A DNA stretch of 20,526 nucleotides, taken from a virus. Positions within the stretch are counted from its first letter, which is position 1; each line of letters starts with the position of its first letter. The stretch is from positions 1 through 20,526 of the IMG/VR virus record IMGVR_UViG_3300047553_000716; one strand, 5' to 3'. Below, piece by piece: positions 3,167-10,816 of the stretch. The position numbers were made by a program, and so were the translations under genes. Under the pieces are notes generated by a model that did not search any database, was not told the origin of the DNA, and saw nothing but the letters and a program-made list of their open reading frames with translations.

Positions 3167-3318
3167 AATCAACCTTAGCAGGCTCAAGCATTGAGTATCA
3201 CTATTGCATCAAGTGCAGAGCTATTTTTGATCATCAGCCTATCATCCTATCATACGATGATGTTGAATATGATGAGAGTTGGGATGACATCACCAAAGAC
3301 GAGGAAGATGATGAATAA
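3136..3318 (+). CDS. Zinc-ribbon miniprotein
   Basis: This is a 60-aa protein with two CxxC knuckles (C3/C6 and C24/C27) that would bind one zinc ion, followed by a strongly acidic tail (EYDESWDDITKDEEDDE). It overlaps the thyX 3' end by 31 bp in another frame. GGAG lies 8 nt before its ATG, supporting real translation. An acidic tail behind a zinc ribbon suggests a protein-binding partner role, for example with a nucleic-acid enzyme, but no function can be assigned. The paired cysteines make chance less likely than for other short frames. Confidence 0.62.
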   Translation: MQCLRCKNTIKSTLAGSSIEYHYCIKCRAIFDHQPIILSYDDVEYDESWDDITKDEEDDE

Positions 3319-3787
3319 CTTTTTTGATGTATGTTGGCTTGTCATGGGATTGATCTTTAACCCAACTCAGAGCAAGCAAGATTTGGGATGGGAAAAGATT
3401 ATTGCTCAATCAATCCCTTCAAGAATGAGAGTATGCCAACAAGTCGCATTTAGTGCTGATAGAATGGGCGTTGATCCAAATCTGATGATTGCCATCGCTT
3501 TCTATGAGAGCAAGTTTGAAAGAGGTTTAATTTCATCAGCTGGGGCGGTTGGAGTGATGCAAGTGAAAAAGCAATTTGTTGACTGTCAAGGATGCAATGA
3601 GATTGAGTATGGGATAAAGGCCTATCAGATATGGCTTGCTAAGAGTGAAGGCGATGTTTGTCTTGCTTTGGGTCGCTATGCTGTAGGCAATAAAGGCAAG
3701 TGTGGAAAGAGATCTAAAGCTATTATCAAGCTTGCTTCTGAGATAGCTTGTCTTGCCTCCAAGGATGATGATTGCTATGACTGCTAA
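3308..3787 (+). CDS. SLT-type lytic transglycosylase
   Basis: This is a murein-cleaving enzyme of the soluble lytic transglycosylase fold, 159 aa from ATG 3308. An ATG at 3311 is an alternative, and GAGGAAG lies just upstream. The in-frame opening to 3191 is ignored because it lies inside the previous gene. The family pattern is clear: DPNLMIAIAFYESKF with catalytic E67, SSAGAVGVMQV (76-86), and GRYAVGNKGK near the end. Residues 5-18 are hydrophobic and could be a signal or anchor. It has six or more cysteines. It sits between nucleotide-metabolism genes, far from the late lysis pair, so a role in DNA entry or accessory lysis are both possible. Confidence 0.82.
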   Translation: MMNNFFDVCWLVMGLIFNPTQSKQDLGWEKIIAQSIPSRMRVCQQVAFSADRMGVDPNLMIAIAFYESKFERGLISSAGAVGVMQVKKQFVDCQGCNEIEYGIKAYQIWLAKSEGDVCLALGRYAVGNKGKCGKRSKAIIKLASEIACLASKDDDCYDC

Positions 3788-4220
3788 AGATAAGGCATTT
3801 TTGAGTATGGCTGAGATCATGGCTAGCCTCTCACCATGTAGCAGGGCAAAAGTTGGGGCGGTGATAGTCAAGGGAGATGTGCCTATCATCTCTTCTTTCA
3901 ATGGAATTGCTCGCAAGCAAAGCGGATTATGTGGAGGTGCTGATTGTCTTAGAGATAGATGTAAAATAGCAAGCGGATCAGAAAGTCAAATAGGTTGCCA
4001 CCATGCTGAATTTAATGCAATTGCGAATGCTGCTAAGAATGGGACATCAACAGATGGATGCTCGATTTATGTGACTGCTCCACCTTGCTTAATGTGTGCC
4101 AAGCTAATTCATCATGCTGGGATTAAAGCCGTTATTTATGAAGATCGAGATAATCGTTGGATATCAACAGGCGAAGAGTATTTATCTATGAATGGGATTG
4201 ATATTTTAAAGATTAGATAG
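3777..4220 (+). CDS. dcd-like: dCMP deaminase
   Basis: This enzyme deaminates dCMP to dUMP, the ThyX substrate. It is 147 aa from ATG 3777, overlapping the transglycosylase by 11 bp. AAGGA lies 11 nt upstream. Start codons at 3753, 3765 and 3768 are possible but have poorer spacing. The zinc/catalytic motifs are H76-A77-E78 and P103-C104-x-x-C107. Additional cysteines and a histidine (C52, C57, C62, C74, H75) fall where many dCMP deaminases carry a second, structural zinc site. The N-terminal pattern SPCSRAKVGAVIVK fits the family. The stop codon lies inside the first copy of the 52-bp direct repeat. Confidence 0.9.
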   Translation: MTAKDKAFLSMAEIMASLSPCSRAKVGAVIVKGDVPIISSFNGIARKQSGLCGGADCLRDRCKIASGSESQIGCHHAEFNAIANAAKNGTSTDGCSIYVTAPPCLMCAKLIHHAGIKAVIYEDRDNRWISTGEEYLSMNGIDILKIR

Positions 4221-4266
4221 ATCAGCCCAAGTTTTGAGTTAGTATTTTACAAGTTTCTTCACTGAA
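4215..4266. repeat. Direct repeat copy 1 (52 bp)
   Basis: It begins AGATAGATCAGCCCAAG and ends TTTCTTCACTGAA. It is identical to 4792-4844 except for one missing T (GAGTTAG against GAGTTTAG). It overlaps the stop codon of the dCMP deaminase gene. Confidence 0.95.
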
Positions 4267-4320
4267 TCCTCATGCTCTGATTTTAGTTTGAGCGATTGTG
4301 TGGTATCTTGTTTAGTACGA

Positions 4321-4524
4321 TCATGGAGCAAAAAATAGTAGTTGGTTGTTTTTTGCATATCCCAAAATGCACGCTCCACACATAATAGATAGTATTAGCG
4401 TAACTACGAATATGGGGGATTTTCTTTCGTCGTCTTCTTCTCGATAAAAAGCACCTACATTGAGATTCATGACCATCCACATGAAGAAGAAGTTTAGAAT
4501 AATAATAAAAAGCGTCTTATTCAT
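4321..4524 (-). CDS. Small two-helix membrane protein, unknown
   Basis: This is a 67-aa protein from ATG 4524, with GAGGAAAG 5-6 nt upstream. The first hydrophobic helix is about residues 4-19 (TLFIIILNFFFMWMVM). It is followed by a short charged loop (YREEDDERKS, 27-36) and a second helix about 38-56. The upstream gene overlaps it by 8 bp. The two-helix hairpin and small size resemble phage holins, and the transglycosylase gene lies about 0.5 kb away on the other strand. That is only an inference, and a superinfection-exclusion or other envelope role is equally possible. The gene pair is bracketed by the direct repeat. Confidence 0.6.
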   Translation of the reverse strand: MNKTLFIIILNFFFMWMVMNLNVGAFYREEDDERKSPIFVVTLILSIMCGACILGYAKNNQLLFFAP

Positions 4525-4687
4525 GTGTGCTTTCCTCTTGTGCCGATAACTTGCTTGCTTCTTCAAAGTCTTTTTGCTTCTGAGTCATTTGGCTGTGATA
4601 TGCTTGATGATATTCGGTCATGCGAGGATTATCCTCATGGATATCAGAAATTTCATCTAAAAATTCACGAATTAAAGCACCGCACAT
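4517..4687 (-). CDS. 56-aa protein, unknown
   Basis: This short gene has a clear ribosome site (AAAGGA about 6 nt before ATG 4687) and an 8-bp overlap with the membrane-protein gene downstream. The product starts MCGALIREFLDEISDIHEDN and ends QEESTHE. It is acidic and helical, with no recognisable domain. Spacing, overlap and Shine-Dalgarno site make it likely to be real although it is under 60 aa. It would be the first gene of a two-gene unit. Confidence 0.6.
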   Translation of the reverse strand: MCGALIREFLDEISDIHEDNPRMTEYHQAYHSQMTQKQKDFEEASKLSAQEESTHE

Positions 4688-4715
4688 TTTTATTTCCTTT
4701 TATCAGATAGAGTCA

Positions 4716-4756
4716 CCAGCTCTTAAAGTAATCCCCATTTCTTAGGAGAGAGCTGG
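4716..4756. promoter_or_regulatory. Inverted repeat in leader of small minus-strand operon
   Basis: CCAGCTCT (4716-4723) pairs with AGAGCTGG (4749-4756) across a 25-nt loop. It lies about 30 bp before the 56-aa gene start, so it would be a stem-loop in its 5' leader. No T tract follows on either strand, which argues against a simple terminator. The function is unknown. Confidence 0.4.
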
Positions 4757-4791
4757 CAAATATTAAACACACAACAAGCAAAAGTTATTTC

Positions 4792-4844
4792 AGATAGATC
4801 AGCCCAAGTTTTGAGTTTAGTATTTTACAAGTTTCTTCACTGAA
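4792..4844. repeat. Direct repeat copy 2 (53 bp)
   Basis: This is the second copy of the element at 4215-4266, with one extra T. It is followed by a run of eight A residues. It lies in non-coding DNA upstream of the small minus-strand operon and downstream of the 388-aa gene. Confidence 0.95.
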
Positions 4845-4951
4845 AAAAAAGGGCTGAGATTAGTGTCTGCTCTAAGTGCTACGCGTCAATCTTCGTTTGT
4901 CTTATATGTCCCATCAAGGTTGAGCAGACAAAGCTTAAACACTGGAGCAAG
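4845..4951. other. Non-coding stretch with long-range inverted repeat
   Basis: No gene fits here. TGTCTGCTC (4864-4872) and GAGCAGACA (4922-4930) are exact 9-bp complements enclosing 49 nt. An AGTGT/ACACT pair lies at the outer side (4862-4866 and 4939-4943). A transcript would fold into a closed structure. It could be a structured 3' end, a small RNA or a relic. It lies just past the stop of the 388-aa gene. Confidence 0.35.
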
Positions 4952-6118
4952 CTATTTACTTTCAATTTTCCATCCATTTTCTAACAGATGTAAAGTTTCT
5001 TTTGATCTCATCTTTGCATAATTCAAATGACTAAGAAAAGGATTTTGGCTCTTGCTTTTAAATGTAATATGCTTTCTTTGATCATCTTTTGTTAAAGAAA
5101 GATGCAACCCTAGATAGTAATATCCTTGAGCTAGATATGATTTAATTTCATCAAATAAAACAGCTTGTACATCATCATCTTTATGCAAGATAATTGAATA
5201 CGGTGTTCTTGTTTTCTGCGATCTTGTAACAATTGATTTCTCAGAAGCAGCCTTTTCAAAATCTAAAGCTAATTGTTGTCCTAATTTCTTTTTATGTCTA
5301 AATGCTAAACATATTTTTTCAGAGCTTAATTCCCATCCAGTTCTCAAGAAATGTGCAATCTCAAGGTTTCTTGATCTTTCATACAACTCATAATCTTGAC
5401 CCGCAAAATGATTTTTAGGAGAAATCTGAAGATATCTACGTTTAAAATCACTTAGTCTAAAAATTGAAATTTGAGATGAAACAAATCTAAATCCATTTTC
5501 AAGAAAAGATAAGCATTTTTCATTTGGAACATATAATTGCTCATTGTCTTTTTTCATAATATGATGAAATCTTAGACTTTGATAAAATGCATTATGTTCA
5601 CCAGCCTTGACAGCTTCATCAGCCTTGACAGCTTCATCAGCCTTGACGGTTTCATCAGCCTTGACAGCTTCATCAGCCTTGACAGCTTCATCAGCCTTGA
5701 CGGTTTCATCAGCCTTGACAGCTTCATCAGCTTGAATTGATGTTGCATTGTAGCAAGTTCCAAGTTCTGAGAAAACAGAGATAAATTCATCACCAAATTG
5801 ATCAGCAGCAACAGCCATCATTTCTTCATAGGTTTGATAATAGCACAAATCAAATCTTGAAAAGGCATCAGCCCCCAATCTTTCAACATCAGCCTTGAGT
5901 TCTGGATGTCTAGCAATATTGATGCTATTGAGCAAATTTGATTTTGATCTTGTGCCAATGAAAAAGTGACCATTTTTCTTATTGATGATCATGTAAATCC
6001 AATTGTATTTTTCATCTTTGCCTTTAAAGACGGTGATGTTTTGATAGTCAAAAGTTTCATTCAAGAGATCATGGACATATTCTTGAGTGATTGGGCATGT
6101 GAAAGTAACATCTTTCAT
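4952..6118 (-). CDS. GIY-YIG-like protein with KADEAV repeat linker and GW-motif C-terminus
   Basis: This 388-aa protein has three parts. Residues 40-126 follow the GIY-YIG layout seen in phage SegB-like proteins: WIYMIINKKNGHFFIG, then TRSKSNLL, LGADAFSRFDL, TYEEMM and a closing CYN. Several catalytic positions are changed: YIG is FIG (F53), and the acidic residue of the last helix appears as D106 rather than E. Residues 130-173 are seven KADEAV/KADETV units. Residues 174-388 are basic and contain four copies of a LxxGW/F/Y-type motif (at 207-213, 258-264, 329-335 and 379-385). It is possibly a DNA-binding descendant of a homing endonuclease, with activity uncertain. It has its own sigma70-like promoter. 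Confidence 0.6.
   Translation of the reverse strand: MKDVTFTCPITQEYVHDLLNETFDYQNITVFKGKDEKYNWIYMIINKKNGHFFIGTRSKSNLLNSINIARHPELKADVERLGADAFSRFDLCYYQTYEEMMAVAADQFGDEFISVFSELGTCYNATSIQADEAVKADETVKADEAVKADEAVKADETVKADEAVKADEAVKAGEHNAFYQSLRFHHIMKKDNEQLYVPNEKCLSFLENGFRFVSSQISIFRLSDFKRRYLQISPKNHFAGQDYELYERSRNLEIAHFLRTGWELSSEKICLAFRHKKKLGQQLALDFEKAASEKSIVTRSQKTRTPYSIILHKDDDVQAVLFDEIKSYLAQGYYYLGLHLSLTKDDQRKHITFKSKSQNPFLSHLNYAKMRSKETLHLLENGWKIESK
5599..5742. repeat. 18-bp tandem array with 54-bp higher-order period
   Basis: Seven full 18-bp units (CATCAGCCTTGACAGCTT and variants) run 5599-5724, with a degenerate eighth to 5742. Units 3 and 6 carry the variant ending GACGGTTT, and the rest end GACAGCTT. 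This gives a two-times-repeated three-unit block. In the protein it encodes KADEAV and KADETV hexapeptides. All units keep the reading frame. Confidence 0.95.
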
Positions 6119-6162
6119 TTTTAAATCCTTCTGTTTTTGATTTAGTCATATTGACTTTTAAC

Positions 6163-6191
6163 AAAGTATGCTTTTTTAAATAACTTGTCAA
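6163..6191 (-). promoter_or_regulatory. Sigma70-like promoter for the 388-aa gene
   Basis: On the minus strand TTGACA (6191-6186), a 17-bp spacer and TACTTT (6168-6163) stand about 45 bp before ATG 6118. AGAAGGA precedes the start codon. The -35 box lies within a TTTTTAAATTGACA 14-mer that recurs at the promoter at 7518. Confidence 0.6.
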
Positions 6192-6197
6192 TTTAAA

Positions 6198-6210
6198 AAC
6201 AATCATTGTT
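6198..6210. promoter_or_regulatory. 13-bp palindrome next to -35 box
   Basis: AACAAT-C-ATTGTT is a perfect palindrome 6 bp from the -35 box of the 388-aa gene and 4 bp past the stop of the 418-aa gene. It is a candidate operator. It is too short and AT-rich to act alone as a terminator. Confidence 0.35.
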
Positions 6211-6214
6211 AAAA

Positions 6215-7471
6215 TTAAATTTCAATCTTAGTAAATAGTTTTTGATTTTGATCAGGCTTAGAGAAGATAACAATTGATCCATCAAAAGAAGATACTAAAT
6301 CATCAAATTGTTGCATCATCCTATCTTTGAATTTGCTTGATGCTGAAGGTGGATTGAAATCAGTGATGATGATGATATCCATCTTTCCAAAGTCGTCTTT
6401 GATAGTCGATAGAGTACCGCCCTTATTTCTTTGATAGTCATCATATCTTAACTCAAACAATTCTTTGAGAGATAGAAAAGCAATCCTAGGGGCTCCAAAC
6501 TGTGCTTGATTTGGATAATGCACCTCAAAGAGATTTTGCTTAAAGATACCTACTGCTAATTGCTCTAATTGAGCTTCATCATTTCCAACGATTTGAAGCT
6601 TGTGTTTGCCCCCTGTGCATATATCCACTACCAAATCTCTATTATCATCGCTTAGAGTGCCTTTAAATTGCTGAATAGAGATATCTTTATATTCAGCCTT
6701 AAAGTTAACATAAGGCAATTTCAATTTTCTTGAGATATGTATCTGTCTTGACTCGGTAGGCCAAACATCATTTAGATCATGAATTGAGTAGTATTTACCT
6801 GTATCTTCACAAGCCTTAAAATTGGATGAAGCTTTAGGTAGTTTTGAATTTAGCTTTTTAGTTTCTTGATTGACATATAGCAGCTTAGCAAATTCTATTG
6901 CCTCCCAATTTGTTGACGGTAGATCAATGAATGGATTTGCATCATGATTGACTTGAGATTGTACTTGCTCAGGCTGAACGGTCTCGATCTGTGTTTTCAC
7001 TTTTCTTTTATTTATTTTCTTTTGATTATCTTTATTAGATATATCTTTATTTGGGGGGTAAAATTCCACTGATTGATTAGGGGATTTTTCCACTGATTGA
7101 TTAGGGGATTTTTCCCTTGATTGAACATCAGATTTATAAAAATCAGTGTATGCTCTCCAGTATCTAGCTAAACAAAAATCACTCAAGATCAGCTGATTGA
7201 CTGATAGCACTTTCTTTTTGATGATGATGTTGGCCTTGATCATTTTAGGGATTGCATCTTTTACTTGATGTTCGGATAATCCAATCAATTTACCAATGAA
7301 CGCATATGAAACACAAATAGATCTGCCATCTGATTTATCATCTAATTCAATGAGCTCAATCATTCTCATCAAGATTGATTTGCTATTGGCGATTGAAGAC
7401 AAGATATCGCATCGATTGATGTTATTAAGAACGCCAAATGATGGCATAAGCTCGCTAAATAGCTTTGACAT
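6215..7471 (-). CDS. Probable replication initiator / helicase loader with degenerate AAA+ domain
   Basis: This 418-aa protein starts with a winged-helix-like region (about 20-100), including a helix-turn-helix IGKLIGLSEHQVKDAIPKMI and a beta wing (NIIIKKK). A repeat-bearing linker follows: KSPNQSVE twice, 121-136, then a Lys/Gln-rich stretch to 175. The C-terminus (about 285-418) aligns by eye with the DnaC/IstB ATPase core: KLQIVGNDEAQ where Walker A should be, IAFLSLKELFELR, then DIIIITDF where Walker B should be. The P-loop lysine is absent, so nucleotide binding is doubtful. The neighbouring divergent HTH and DnaB genes support a role in origin recognition and helicase loading. This is an inference, not a firm family match. 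Confidence 0.6.
   Translation of the reverse strand: MSKLFSELMPSFGVLNNINRCDILSSIANSKSILMRMIELIELDDKSDGRSICVSYAFIGKLIGLSEHQVKDAIPKMIKANIIIKKKVLSVNQLILSDFCLARYWRAYTDFYKSDVQSREKSPNQSVEKSPNQSVEFYPPNKDISNKDNQKKINKRKVKTQIETVQPEQVQSQVNHDANPFIDLPSTNWEAIEFAKLLYVNQETKKLNSKLPKASSNFKACEDTGKYYSIHDLNDVWPTESRQIHISRKLKLPYVNFKAEYKDISIQQFKGTLSDDNRDLVVDICTGGKHKLQIVGNDEAQLEQLAVGIFKQNLFEVHYPNQAQFGAPRIAFLSLKELFELRYDDYQRNKGGTLSTIKDDFGKMDIIIITDFNPPSASSKFKDRMMQQFDDLVSSFDGSIVIFSKPDQNQKLFTKIEI
7066..7113. repeat. Two tandem 24-bp units inside the initiator gene
   Basis: Two exact 24-bp units (CCACTGATTGATTAGGGG plus ATTTTT) lie at 7066-7089 and 7090-7113, followed by a partial third. They encode the KSPNQSVE octapeptide repeat. 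Initiator genes of some phages contain their origin iterons, so an origin role is possible but unproven. Confidence 0.9.
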
Positions 7472-9868: not shown

Positions 9869-10816
9869 ATGGCAAATCATAAACTTTTAGAATCTCTCTC
9901 TGATGTCAATGCTATCGCTGATAGTATGGAGCAACTCGTAAAACTCGCCGCCTATCTCACTGCAGGCACAAATTGGACTGCCCAACAACTTGTCACAGCT
10001 TATCTCTCTTATGGGATGATGCATGGTTGGAACATTGCTCAAACTATGGAAAAGATGAACATCATTAAAGGCAAGATCACATATCAAGCTTCTGCGATGT
10101 TTGGCATTGTCATTGCTTCTCCCAAGTGCAAGTCATGGAAAGTCTTATCAAACACTGAAGAAGAATGCTCAATTGAATTTACAAGAGGCGACAACAATCA
10201 AAAGTATGTAGTCACTTTCACGATTGCATTGGCACAGAAGCAAGGTTTGACAAATAATCGCCAATGGCAGACTATGCCCAAGCAAATGCTTATGGCAAGA
10301 TGTAAATCAATGGCTGTTCGTGATGTGTTTGGCGATGTTATCAGTGGCTATGATACGATTGAGATGGCTGATAATATGGAGATGTCTGAAGAAGAAAGAC
10401 TAGAAATCTTGAGTCAAGAGCTTGATACTCCAATCTATGCTGAGAGACAACCCGTTCAAAGAGCAAAGCCGGGCGTCAAGGCTGGGGCAGATACAAAAGC
10501 AAAGCCTCAACCTGTGCAAGTTCAACCTGTAGTTCAACCTGTGCAAGTTCAACCTGTGCAAGTACAAGCACCACCACAACAGCCCCAACAAGTGCAACAA
10601 TCAGCACCACCACCCCAACCCCAACAAGTGCAGCAGTCAGCACCGCCCAAGACTCAAGCACAACCACATGATCAAGCTTCACTCTTCCCAAGCGATCAAA
10701 AGCAAGCCGTTGAGTATCAATCCTATCGAGACAAGGATTTAAGAGGAGGCTGGGCTGATGCCGACTACGATGAAGATGATGCTAGGGATTGGAGAGAGTC
10801 GTGGAAAATTAAATAA
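9869..10816 (+). CDS. recT-like: RecT-like single-strand annealing protein
   Basis: This is a 315-aa DNA recombinase that anneals complementary single strands. The first 170 residues carry the RecT pattern: NWTAQQLVTAYLSYGMMHGW, IIKGKITYQASAMFGIVI, then the diagnostic W133, MPKQMLMARCKSMAVRDVF (136-154) and GYDTIEMAD. Residues 194-262 are a Pro/Gln/Val-rich low-complexity linker with nested repeats. The C-terminus is aromatic and acidic (ADADYDEDDARDW), resembling the partner-binding tails found on SSBs. AAGGAAAA precedes the ATG. No partner exonuclease is seen in this window. The gene end overlaps the convergent RNR gene by 8 bp. Confidence 0.82.
   Translation: MANHKLLESLSDVNAIADSMEQLVKLAAYLTAGTNWTAQQLVTAYLSYGMMHGWNIAQTMEKMNIIKGKITYQASAMFGIVIASPKCKSWKVLSNTEEECSIEFTRGDNNQKYVVTFTIALAQKQGLTNNRQWQTMPKQMLMARCKSMAVRDVFGDVISGYDTIEMADNMEMSEEERLEILSQELDTPIYAERQPVQRAKPGVKAGADTKAKPQPVQVQPVVQPVQVQPVQVQAPPQQPQQVQQSAPPPQPQQVQQSAPPKTQAQPHDQASLFPSDQKQAVEYQSYRDKDLRGGWADADYDEDDARDWRESWKIK
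10510..10650. repeat. Nested repeats coding the Pro/Gln linker
   Basis: Several copies of a CAACCTGTGCAAGTT-type unit (QPVQV) are followed by two copies of a 33-bp-class unit coding QPQQVQQSAPP. All are in frame. The length of such arrays is expected to vary between relatives. Confidence 0.8.

Follow-up and report, generated by a model that had tools for sequence, protein, structure and literature searches.

Free-standing genes for GIY-YIG homing endonucleases of the Seg type lie next to replication genes in phage T4, where, according to the account in PMC2988022, segE is a neighbor of uvsW and segG of gene 32. In the same account the GIY-YIG endonuclease I-TevI is described as able to repress transcription through its DNA-binding domain, which provides a precedent for regulation by an endonuclease of this fold (PMC2988022). 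Phage homing endonucleases have also been reported at the borders of genome modules, as described in PMC10448857. Their life cycle, as outlined in PMC13405050, is thought to run from fixation through the loss of cutting activity to disappearance. In the open-licence literature that was searched, we recognised no Seg-like line that had lost its catalytic residues and yet been maintained. The line described here appears to behave otherwise: without a canonical active site, it seems to persist and diversify where intact and gene-less alleles coexist in close phages.

The window, by which we mean the whole stretch of DNA that was analyzed, is a metagenomic phage fragment 20,526 bases long, entered as a virus record. 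The gene under study is flanked by an O-like replication gene and a gene for dCMP deaminase, and Pfam and PHROG annotation of its neighbors also identified DnaB, ThyX, an SLT transglycosylase, SSB, and ribonucleotide reductase, with a terminase small subunit gene further along the window. The open reading frames of the SLT transglycosylase (3191-3787) and the deaminase (3753-4220) overlap by 35 bases as listed. We refer to this gene and its relatives in four contigs as A-type; the relatives are 90% (L001 and L002), 95% (L003), and 40% (L178) identical to the window protein. The features of the gene and its surroundings are collected in Table 1.

Table 1. Positions of the A-type gene, its parts, and its flanks in the window
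Feature	Position	Strand	Remarks
A-type gene, 388 aa: GIY-YIG-derived domain, repeat linker, and two C-terminal units	4952..6118	(-)	ATG start; fills complement(4952..6118)
N-terminal extension, residues 1-37	6008..6118	(-)	Common to intact alleles of the same site; 65% identity to L178
GIY-YIG fold with non-canonical active site (predicted), residues 38-127	5738..6007	(-)	
Phe53 codon, replaces YIG Tyr	5960..5962	(-)	Alignment column 17
Ala104 codon, replaces catalytic Glu	5807..5809	(-)	Alignment column 67
18-bp tandem array coding KADE[AT]V	5597..5735	(-)	
C-terminal unit 1, residues 181-268, LENGF and LRTGW	5315..5578	(-)	Modelled secondary structure; unit-versus-unit alignment
C-terminal unit 2, residues 303-388, LAQGY and LENGW	4955..5212	(-)	Modelled secondary structure; unit-versus-unit alignment
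Right junction, copy of O-like gene 3' end	4952..4969	(-)	Compared with the apparent empty site of L015/L025
96-bp leader separating O-like stop from A-type gene	6119..6214	(-)	
O-like replication initiation gene, left flank	6215..7471	(-)	phrog_2365, E 4.9e-4
dCMP deaminase, right flank of site	3753..4220	(+)	PF00383, E 4.2e-22

A TTGACA hexamer and a 13-bp palindrome are present in the leader, but both are within chance expectation. A promoter there was not supported (14 promoter-like sites against 13.6 expected, none listed within the leader), nor was an operator, since 31% of shuffles contain such a palindrome. The spacing between the O-like gene and the GIY-YIG gene varies, from 96 bp in the window to 12 bp with an intact allele of the same site (allele B, below) and a 4-bp overlap in L106.

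The original prediction assigned the N-terminal half to the phage SegB-like GIY-YIG family from its domain order and motif spacing, and profile and structure searches bore this out. The spacing is carried by Y42, N46, N49-G50, F53-I-G, G82, F86, and Y123-N124. In the PHROG search, phrog_314, annotated as homing endonuclease, matched the N-terminal 125 amino acids (E 8.7e-5) and phrog_447 matched residues 1-125 (E 2.9e-5); both families also strongly match homing endonucleases of a Vibrio phage and an Acinetobacter phage. Pfam scores stayed under the curated cut-offs, at 14.6 versus 22.6 bits for GIY-YIG (PF01541, window protein) and 15.8 versus 25 bits for SegE_GIY-YIG (PF19835, A-type), the latter a cut-off that intact alleles of the site pass, allele B with 26.6 bits. 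PADLOC named the L178 A-type protein (E 1.3e-4) and allele B (E 2.6e-14) as homing endonucleases and nothing else, and it returned nothing for the window protein. Homology to the intact alleles of the site extends into the N-terminal extension.

A structure model of the window protein, built with 63 of the 82 available aligned sequences, had good confidence across most of residues 1-130 (block means of 83-95 for the most part, with 76 at residues 61-70, and pLDDT of about 95 at residues 31-60 and 71-100). Its top VIA-align match was the I-TevI catalytic domain 1mk0 (Z 7.0, rmsd 3.0, 86 residues), and the next were E. coli PD-T4-3 and T4 EndoII chains, separated by one chain that matches another part of the model. 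At E <= 0.001, BFVD gave 35 matches, of which those with names were for the most part homing or intron endonucleases; a Foldseek search of the PDB gave none. The predicted catalytic-type domain thus has a GIY-YIG fold in the model, which we read as compatibility and not as an independent test because the model's alignment included Seg-like homologues. We drew no conclusion from a match of model residues 215-277 to 2ra8 (Z 6.2, 59 residues), such middling Z values being common. Profile, homology, and model comparisons support placing the N-terminal half among the SegE/SegB-like GIY-YIG domains, as a diverged member descended from Seg-like homing endonucleases.

The active site was examined in an alignment of 82 rows of Seg-like domains, near-copies included and two of them lacking the first half; the best 80 of 166 confirmed sequences were retained. 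The window protein retains Tyr42, Asn46, Gly55, Gly82, Phe86, Tyr123, and Asn124, among them the first-motif Tyr and the C-terminal Asn of YN expected of a GIY-YIG nuclease. Two other residues expected of such a nuclease, the YIG Tyr and the catalytic Glu, are gone both here (Phe53 and Ala104) and in L178 (Phe and Ile). Phe53 is the sole Phe in its column, which holds 79 Tyr and two gaps, and Glu fills the catalytic column in 79 of the 82 rows, the other two non-Glu rows, L096 (Lys) and L104 (Arg), appearing misaligned there. The Y-x-G-[SG]-G motif is destroyed, with Tyr changed to Asn and two Gly to Ala and His, a state unique among the 82 rows, and the GG after YN has also disappeared.

The substituted active site and the Tyr-to-Phe change of the original prediction were therefore confirmed by this alignment, and the losses go beyond what it had noticed. 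Two of its details fared differently. The catalytic Glu had been read as replaced by Asp; the alignment reaches the Glu column from Phe86 without gaps and Asp106, which L178 retains, lies two residues beyond, so that Asp106 is not the Glu equivalent. An Arg had been noted in place of the usual His after the motif; Arg57 is indeed there, but it is not diagnostic of loss, because the 22 intact relatives that share the site never carry His at this position (seven have Arg, twelve Lys, two Gln, and one Ile).

In the survey of the site, 79 loci were retained, of which 58, matching the deaminase at about 77% or more and including L187, were scanned, and 21 (L185, L186, and L188-L206, at 35-52% to the deaminase) were left out of the scan. 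Both flanks were called by HMM or phmmer match in 37 of the 58, the window and L015/L025 lying outside the 37. A GIY-YIG gene was present at the site in 19 of these two-flank contigs and there was none in 18. Such presence and absence at a fixed site beside a possible target gene is what characterizes a free-standing phage homing-endonuclease gene.

Individual contigs show what this polymorphism consists of. In L011, L013, and L014, the A-type gene is replaced by allele B, of 256 aa, beside an O-like/DnaB flank with 96-98% DNA identity to the window. Allele B is only 28% identical to the window protein over 136 residues; YIG, GGG, and Glu are all intact in it, a Gly-rich repeat forms its linker, and the LxxG[WY] motif occurs twice; TTGAAATCAARTA repeats flank the insert. 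The A-type contig L003 and the B-type contig L011 come from one and the same sample, 3300045999. In L015/L025 the two flanks are joined directly and are contiguous across the junction; because a scaffold gap, a run of 10 N, begins 51 bases later, we call this only an apparent empty site. The A-type gene finishes with codons and a stop that resemble a duplicate of the O-like 3' end (AAGATTGAAA..AAATAG in L001), and the right junction, which supplies them, agrees with that 3' end at 16 of 18 bases in L001. A wider search found further alleles of 190, 247, 251, about 300, and 400 aa at the same place. Since intact alleles, gene-less contigs, and the apparent empty site all occur at the locus of the A-type gene, we regard it as a homing-endonuclease site. 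In three other contigs (L152, L154, and L161), a 290-aa protein starting MNLDFLKDRPLVANVSGGKDSTAMALYL takes the place of the GIY-YIG gene between the deaminase and the O-like gene; it contains SGGKDS and is PP-loop-like by eye.

The site also lies where neighboring modules part company. Contigs L106-L127 are close to the window on one side (deaminase 78-98%, SLT 64-85%, ThyX mostly 77-100%), whereas on the other side the O-like protein and DnaB are only about 23-33% identical, so the GIY-YIG gene marks a module border; these contigs appear to carry a swapped replication module whose border falls at the GIY-YIG gene. On a smaller scale, positions 4212-4863 of the window, from the GIY-YIG-like gene to the deaminase, are swapped relative to L001/L003, with an 81-aa open reading frame (4321-4566) versus a 91-aa one, and the DNA on either side is about 95-96% identical between the window and L001.

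Catalytic positions were compared across the site in 28 rows from 27 contigs, L121 and L182 being one contig and L132 and L142 being partial. The YIG Tyr, Y-x-G-[SG]-G, Glu, and YN are retained in 22 of the 27 contigs (one partial). The five A-type contigs, namely, the window, L001 and L002 (with identical genes), L003 (partial), and L178, all lack the same set: the YIG Tyr is Phe, Y-x-G-[SG]-G is destroyed, and Glu is Ala or Ile. The L178 protein, of 400 aa, has only 40% identity overall to that of the window, yet it shares the four C-terminal motifs and the same losses, with no hexapeptide array. In a tree calculated without five long or misaligned rows (L050, L090, L095, L096, and L104), the two A-type rows form one group (SH-aLRT 100), which stands beside the intact alleles of this site in a joint group with an SH-aLRT of 79, weak and not decisive. 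In a tree without L178, the end branch of the window was 2.88 changes per column long, the median being 0.24, which suggests a burst of change before the present form arose. Beyond these contigs, 586 stretches of bacterial genomes fit a pattern for the A-type and none was confirmed, and in isolated phages the matches were either Seg-like GIY-YIG proteins or an unannotated place, with coverage below 80% throughout.

How the two halves of the protein have since evolved can be seen at two distances. Among the close copies, all five variable codons in residues 1-127 are synonymous (neutral probability, 0.0008-0.0015), compared with 6 of 27 in the C-terminal part, where the other 21 are nonsynonymous (p 1.0 against neutral); the synonymous shares differ (Fisher p 0.002), on small counts and in a way that exchange could mimic. 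Between the window and L178, the N-terminal part has 61% amino acid identity (dN 0.29 and dS 1.44, near saturation, the GIY part alone being saturated), versus 31% for the C-terminal part (dN 0.83, dS 1.28). Open frames are kept in L001, L002, L003 (partial), and L178. As far as codon comparisons can show it, the altered N-terminal domain is under purifying selection and is kept better than the supposed recognition half.

The two halves are linked by the hexapeptide array of the original prediction, which has an 18-bp period and 7.8 copies. Full copies of KADE[AT]V number seven in the window, four in L001/L002, five in L003, and none in L178, and the array was rejected as a defining part of the A-type because of its absence from L178. 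Its matches to EntB/EntC and to a LIM protein were set aside as low-complexity repeats. Comparable arrays occur elsewhere in the window. Within the O-like gene (6215-7471), a 24-bp tandem array at 7064-7124 codes KSPNQSVE, likewise in a protein linker, with two copies in the window, L014, and L015, three in L001, L002, and L011, and four in L013, these contigs being near-identical; 15-bp and 36-bp tandem repeats at 10507-10644 in a RecT-like gene (9869-10816) code a Gln/Pro/Val-rich tail.

An LxxGW motif had been said to recur four times in the C-terminal part. Four LxxG[WFY] motifs are present, at residues 206, 258, 329, and 379, only two of which are strictly LxxGW, the others being LxxGF and LxxGY; shuffles of the C-terminal 214 aa hold a mean of 0.107 motifs, and none of 20,000 reached four. 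The predicted model places each motif at the end of a repeated beta-beta-alpha element, and alignment of residues 181-268 with residues 303-388 points to a tandem duplication (Z 12.5, 0 of 300 shuffles). Because units 1 and 2 each best match their own counterpart in L178 (Z 18.2 and 15.9), the duplication is older than the split between the window and L178. In the intact alleles of the site, the unit occurs once or is missing. The units have no Pfam match, and the C-terminal part alone gave nothing convincing against isolated phages. From its position, and by analogy with Seg-like proteins bearing such motifs (L027), we infer that the C-terminal part binds DNA.

On balance, we consider it probable that the A-type gene encodes a maintained, non-canonical derivative of a homing endonuclease, predicted from its sequence to bind DNA without cutting it in the canonical manner. 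The model would be as follows: in related phages a free-standing Seg-like GIY-YIG homing-endonuclease gene occupies the site between the O-like gene and the deaminase; the A-type line has lost the canonical catalytic residues, a loss seen also in a protein only 40% identical; and A-type proteins would still fold as GIY-YIG, would bind DNA via the duplicated C-terminal unit, and would have stopped cutting by the canonical mechanism. Such a protein might act as a site-specific DNA binder that occupies or represses its target, and would be retained if the bound state or the occupied site were useful to the phage or the element. The original prediction that target recognition was kept while cutting was lost or altered agrees with the missing canonical residues, but less well with a recognition half that diverges faster than the altered nuclease domain. 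The binder reading has further points against it: the C-terminal half, the expected binder, varies at a neutral rate among close copies, five N-terminal codons are few, and a recent exchange of N-terminal sequence could be common to the two long A-type alleles. An anti-defence role had also been proposed; Pfam, PHROG, and PADLOC, the last of which covers defence and not anti-defence, gave no sign of it, and the locus instead has the surroundings of a homing-endonuclease site.

A doubtful but serious alternative is that the A-type protein is an active endonuclease with a rebuilt active site, in which other conserved polar residues replace the lost Tyr, Gly-Ser-Gly, and Glu. The window protein and L178 share H51, R57, K59, N67, R70, D77, D90, D106, and D110, some of them unlike the intact alleles, the gene remains at a homing-type site, and GIY-YIG enzymes may carry alternative residues at core positions, according to the description in PMC8263062. 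A conserved effector half with a faster-evolving recognition half (61% versus 31%) is possible for an active homing enzyme, and because N-terminal conservation is also expected of an enzyme with a new active site, we have retained this alternative. It has to contend with the loss of the Glu column in all five A-type contigs, with the report in PMC8263062 that a single Glu-to-Ala change, E180A, left Odn catalytically inactive, and with the position of Asp106, which, two residues along the helix in the model, should face elsewhere.

Ordinary decay, in which a homing endonuclease, once fixed, stopped cutting and is now disappearing as a functionless gene, seems unlikely. It would match the life cycle outlined in PMC13405050, the neutral variation of the C-terminal part among close copies, and a repeat array that expands and contracts. 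Because the altered domain is conserved better than the C-terminal part, however, plain decay is argued against: the same losses recur in L178 with an N-terminal domain that is 61% identical and has a dN well below dS, the frames are open in all four relatives (L003 being partial), and the five N-terminal variable codons of the close copies are all synonymous. We find it quite improbable that the gene is a passenger of recombination, the stretch of DNA at the module border being what matters and the protein being kept by chance; the divergent O-like/DnaB side of L106-L127 next to their close deaminase, SLT, and ThyX side, together with the replaced stretch at 4212-4863, would fit such a passenger, but constraint on the altered domain would not be expected of one. 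That the N-terminal domain resembles GIY-YIG proteins by chance, without common descent, is extremely improbable, for although the Pfam scores are below their cut-offs and Foldseek found no PDB match at its threshold, the phrog_314 match, the PADLOC match of the L178 protein, the I-TevI and other GIY-YIG chains heading the VIA-align list, and homology to intact same-site alleles that includes the N-terminal extension all speak for descent.

To the preferred reading of a maintained DNA-binding derivative we add a bolder and frankly speculative proposal. A-type alleles might be homing blockers, which would occupy the very site that active alleles invade, alter both ends of the target, and produce a pseudo-nuclease that binds DNA. 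Just as speculatively, this pseudo-nuclease might shield remaining targets or repress, and selection might keep the non-cutting domain for as long as active alleles circulate in the same waters. The natural set of alleles makes it testable whether a non-cutting derivative of this kind serves in homing block or regulation or has another active site.

Among known systems, the SegE_GIY-YIG family (PF19835), PHROG 314, and the T4 Seg proteins are closest, sharing the fold, the order of motifs, and a free-standing gene beside a replication gene; the A-type differs in having no YIG Tyr, Y-x-G-[SG]-G, Glu, or GG and in its duplicated C-terminal unit. I-TevI (PDB 1mk0 and 1ln0) appears from the model to share the fold of the catalytic domain (Z 7.0), but it is intron encoded and has the catalytic Glu75 where the A-type has Ala104, and its C-terminal part is a different one. 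The chimeric Odn (ICP1 Gp88) is, as presented in PMC8263062, also a phage GIY-YIG protein tied to replication biology and domain shuffling; it differs in retaining the catalytic Arg and Glu and in its RepA-like N-terminal domain, of which Pfam and PHROG found none in the window protein. T5orf172 homing endonucleases, as characterized in PMC10448857, similarly combine beads-on-a-string repeats with a GIY-YIG-superfamily domain at the borders of genetic exchange, but their repeats are Zn fingers (CapR, DUF723, and DUF4397), whereas those of the A-type are predicted beta-beta-alpha elements with LxxG[WFY]. The Seg-like protein of L027, from another genome, carries the same kind of C-terminal motif in five copies and differs from the A-type in its intact catalytic residues.
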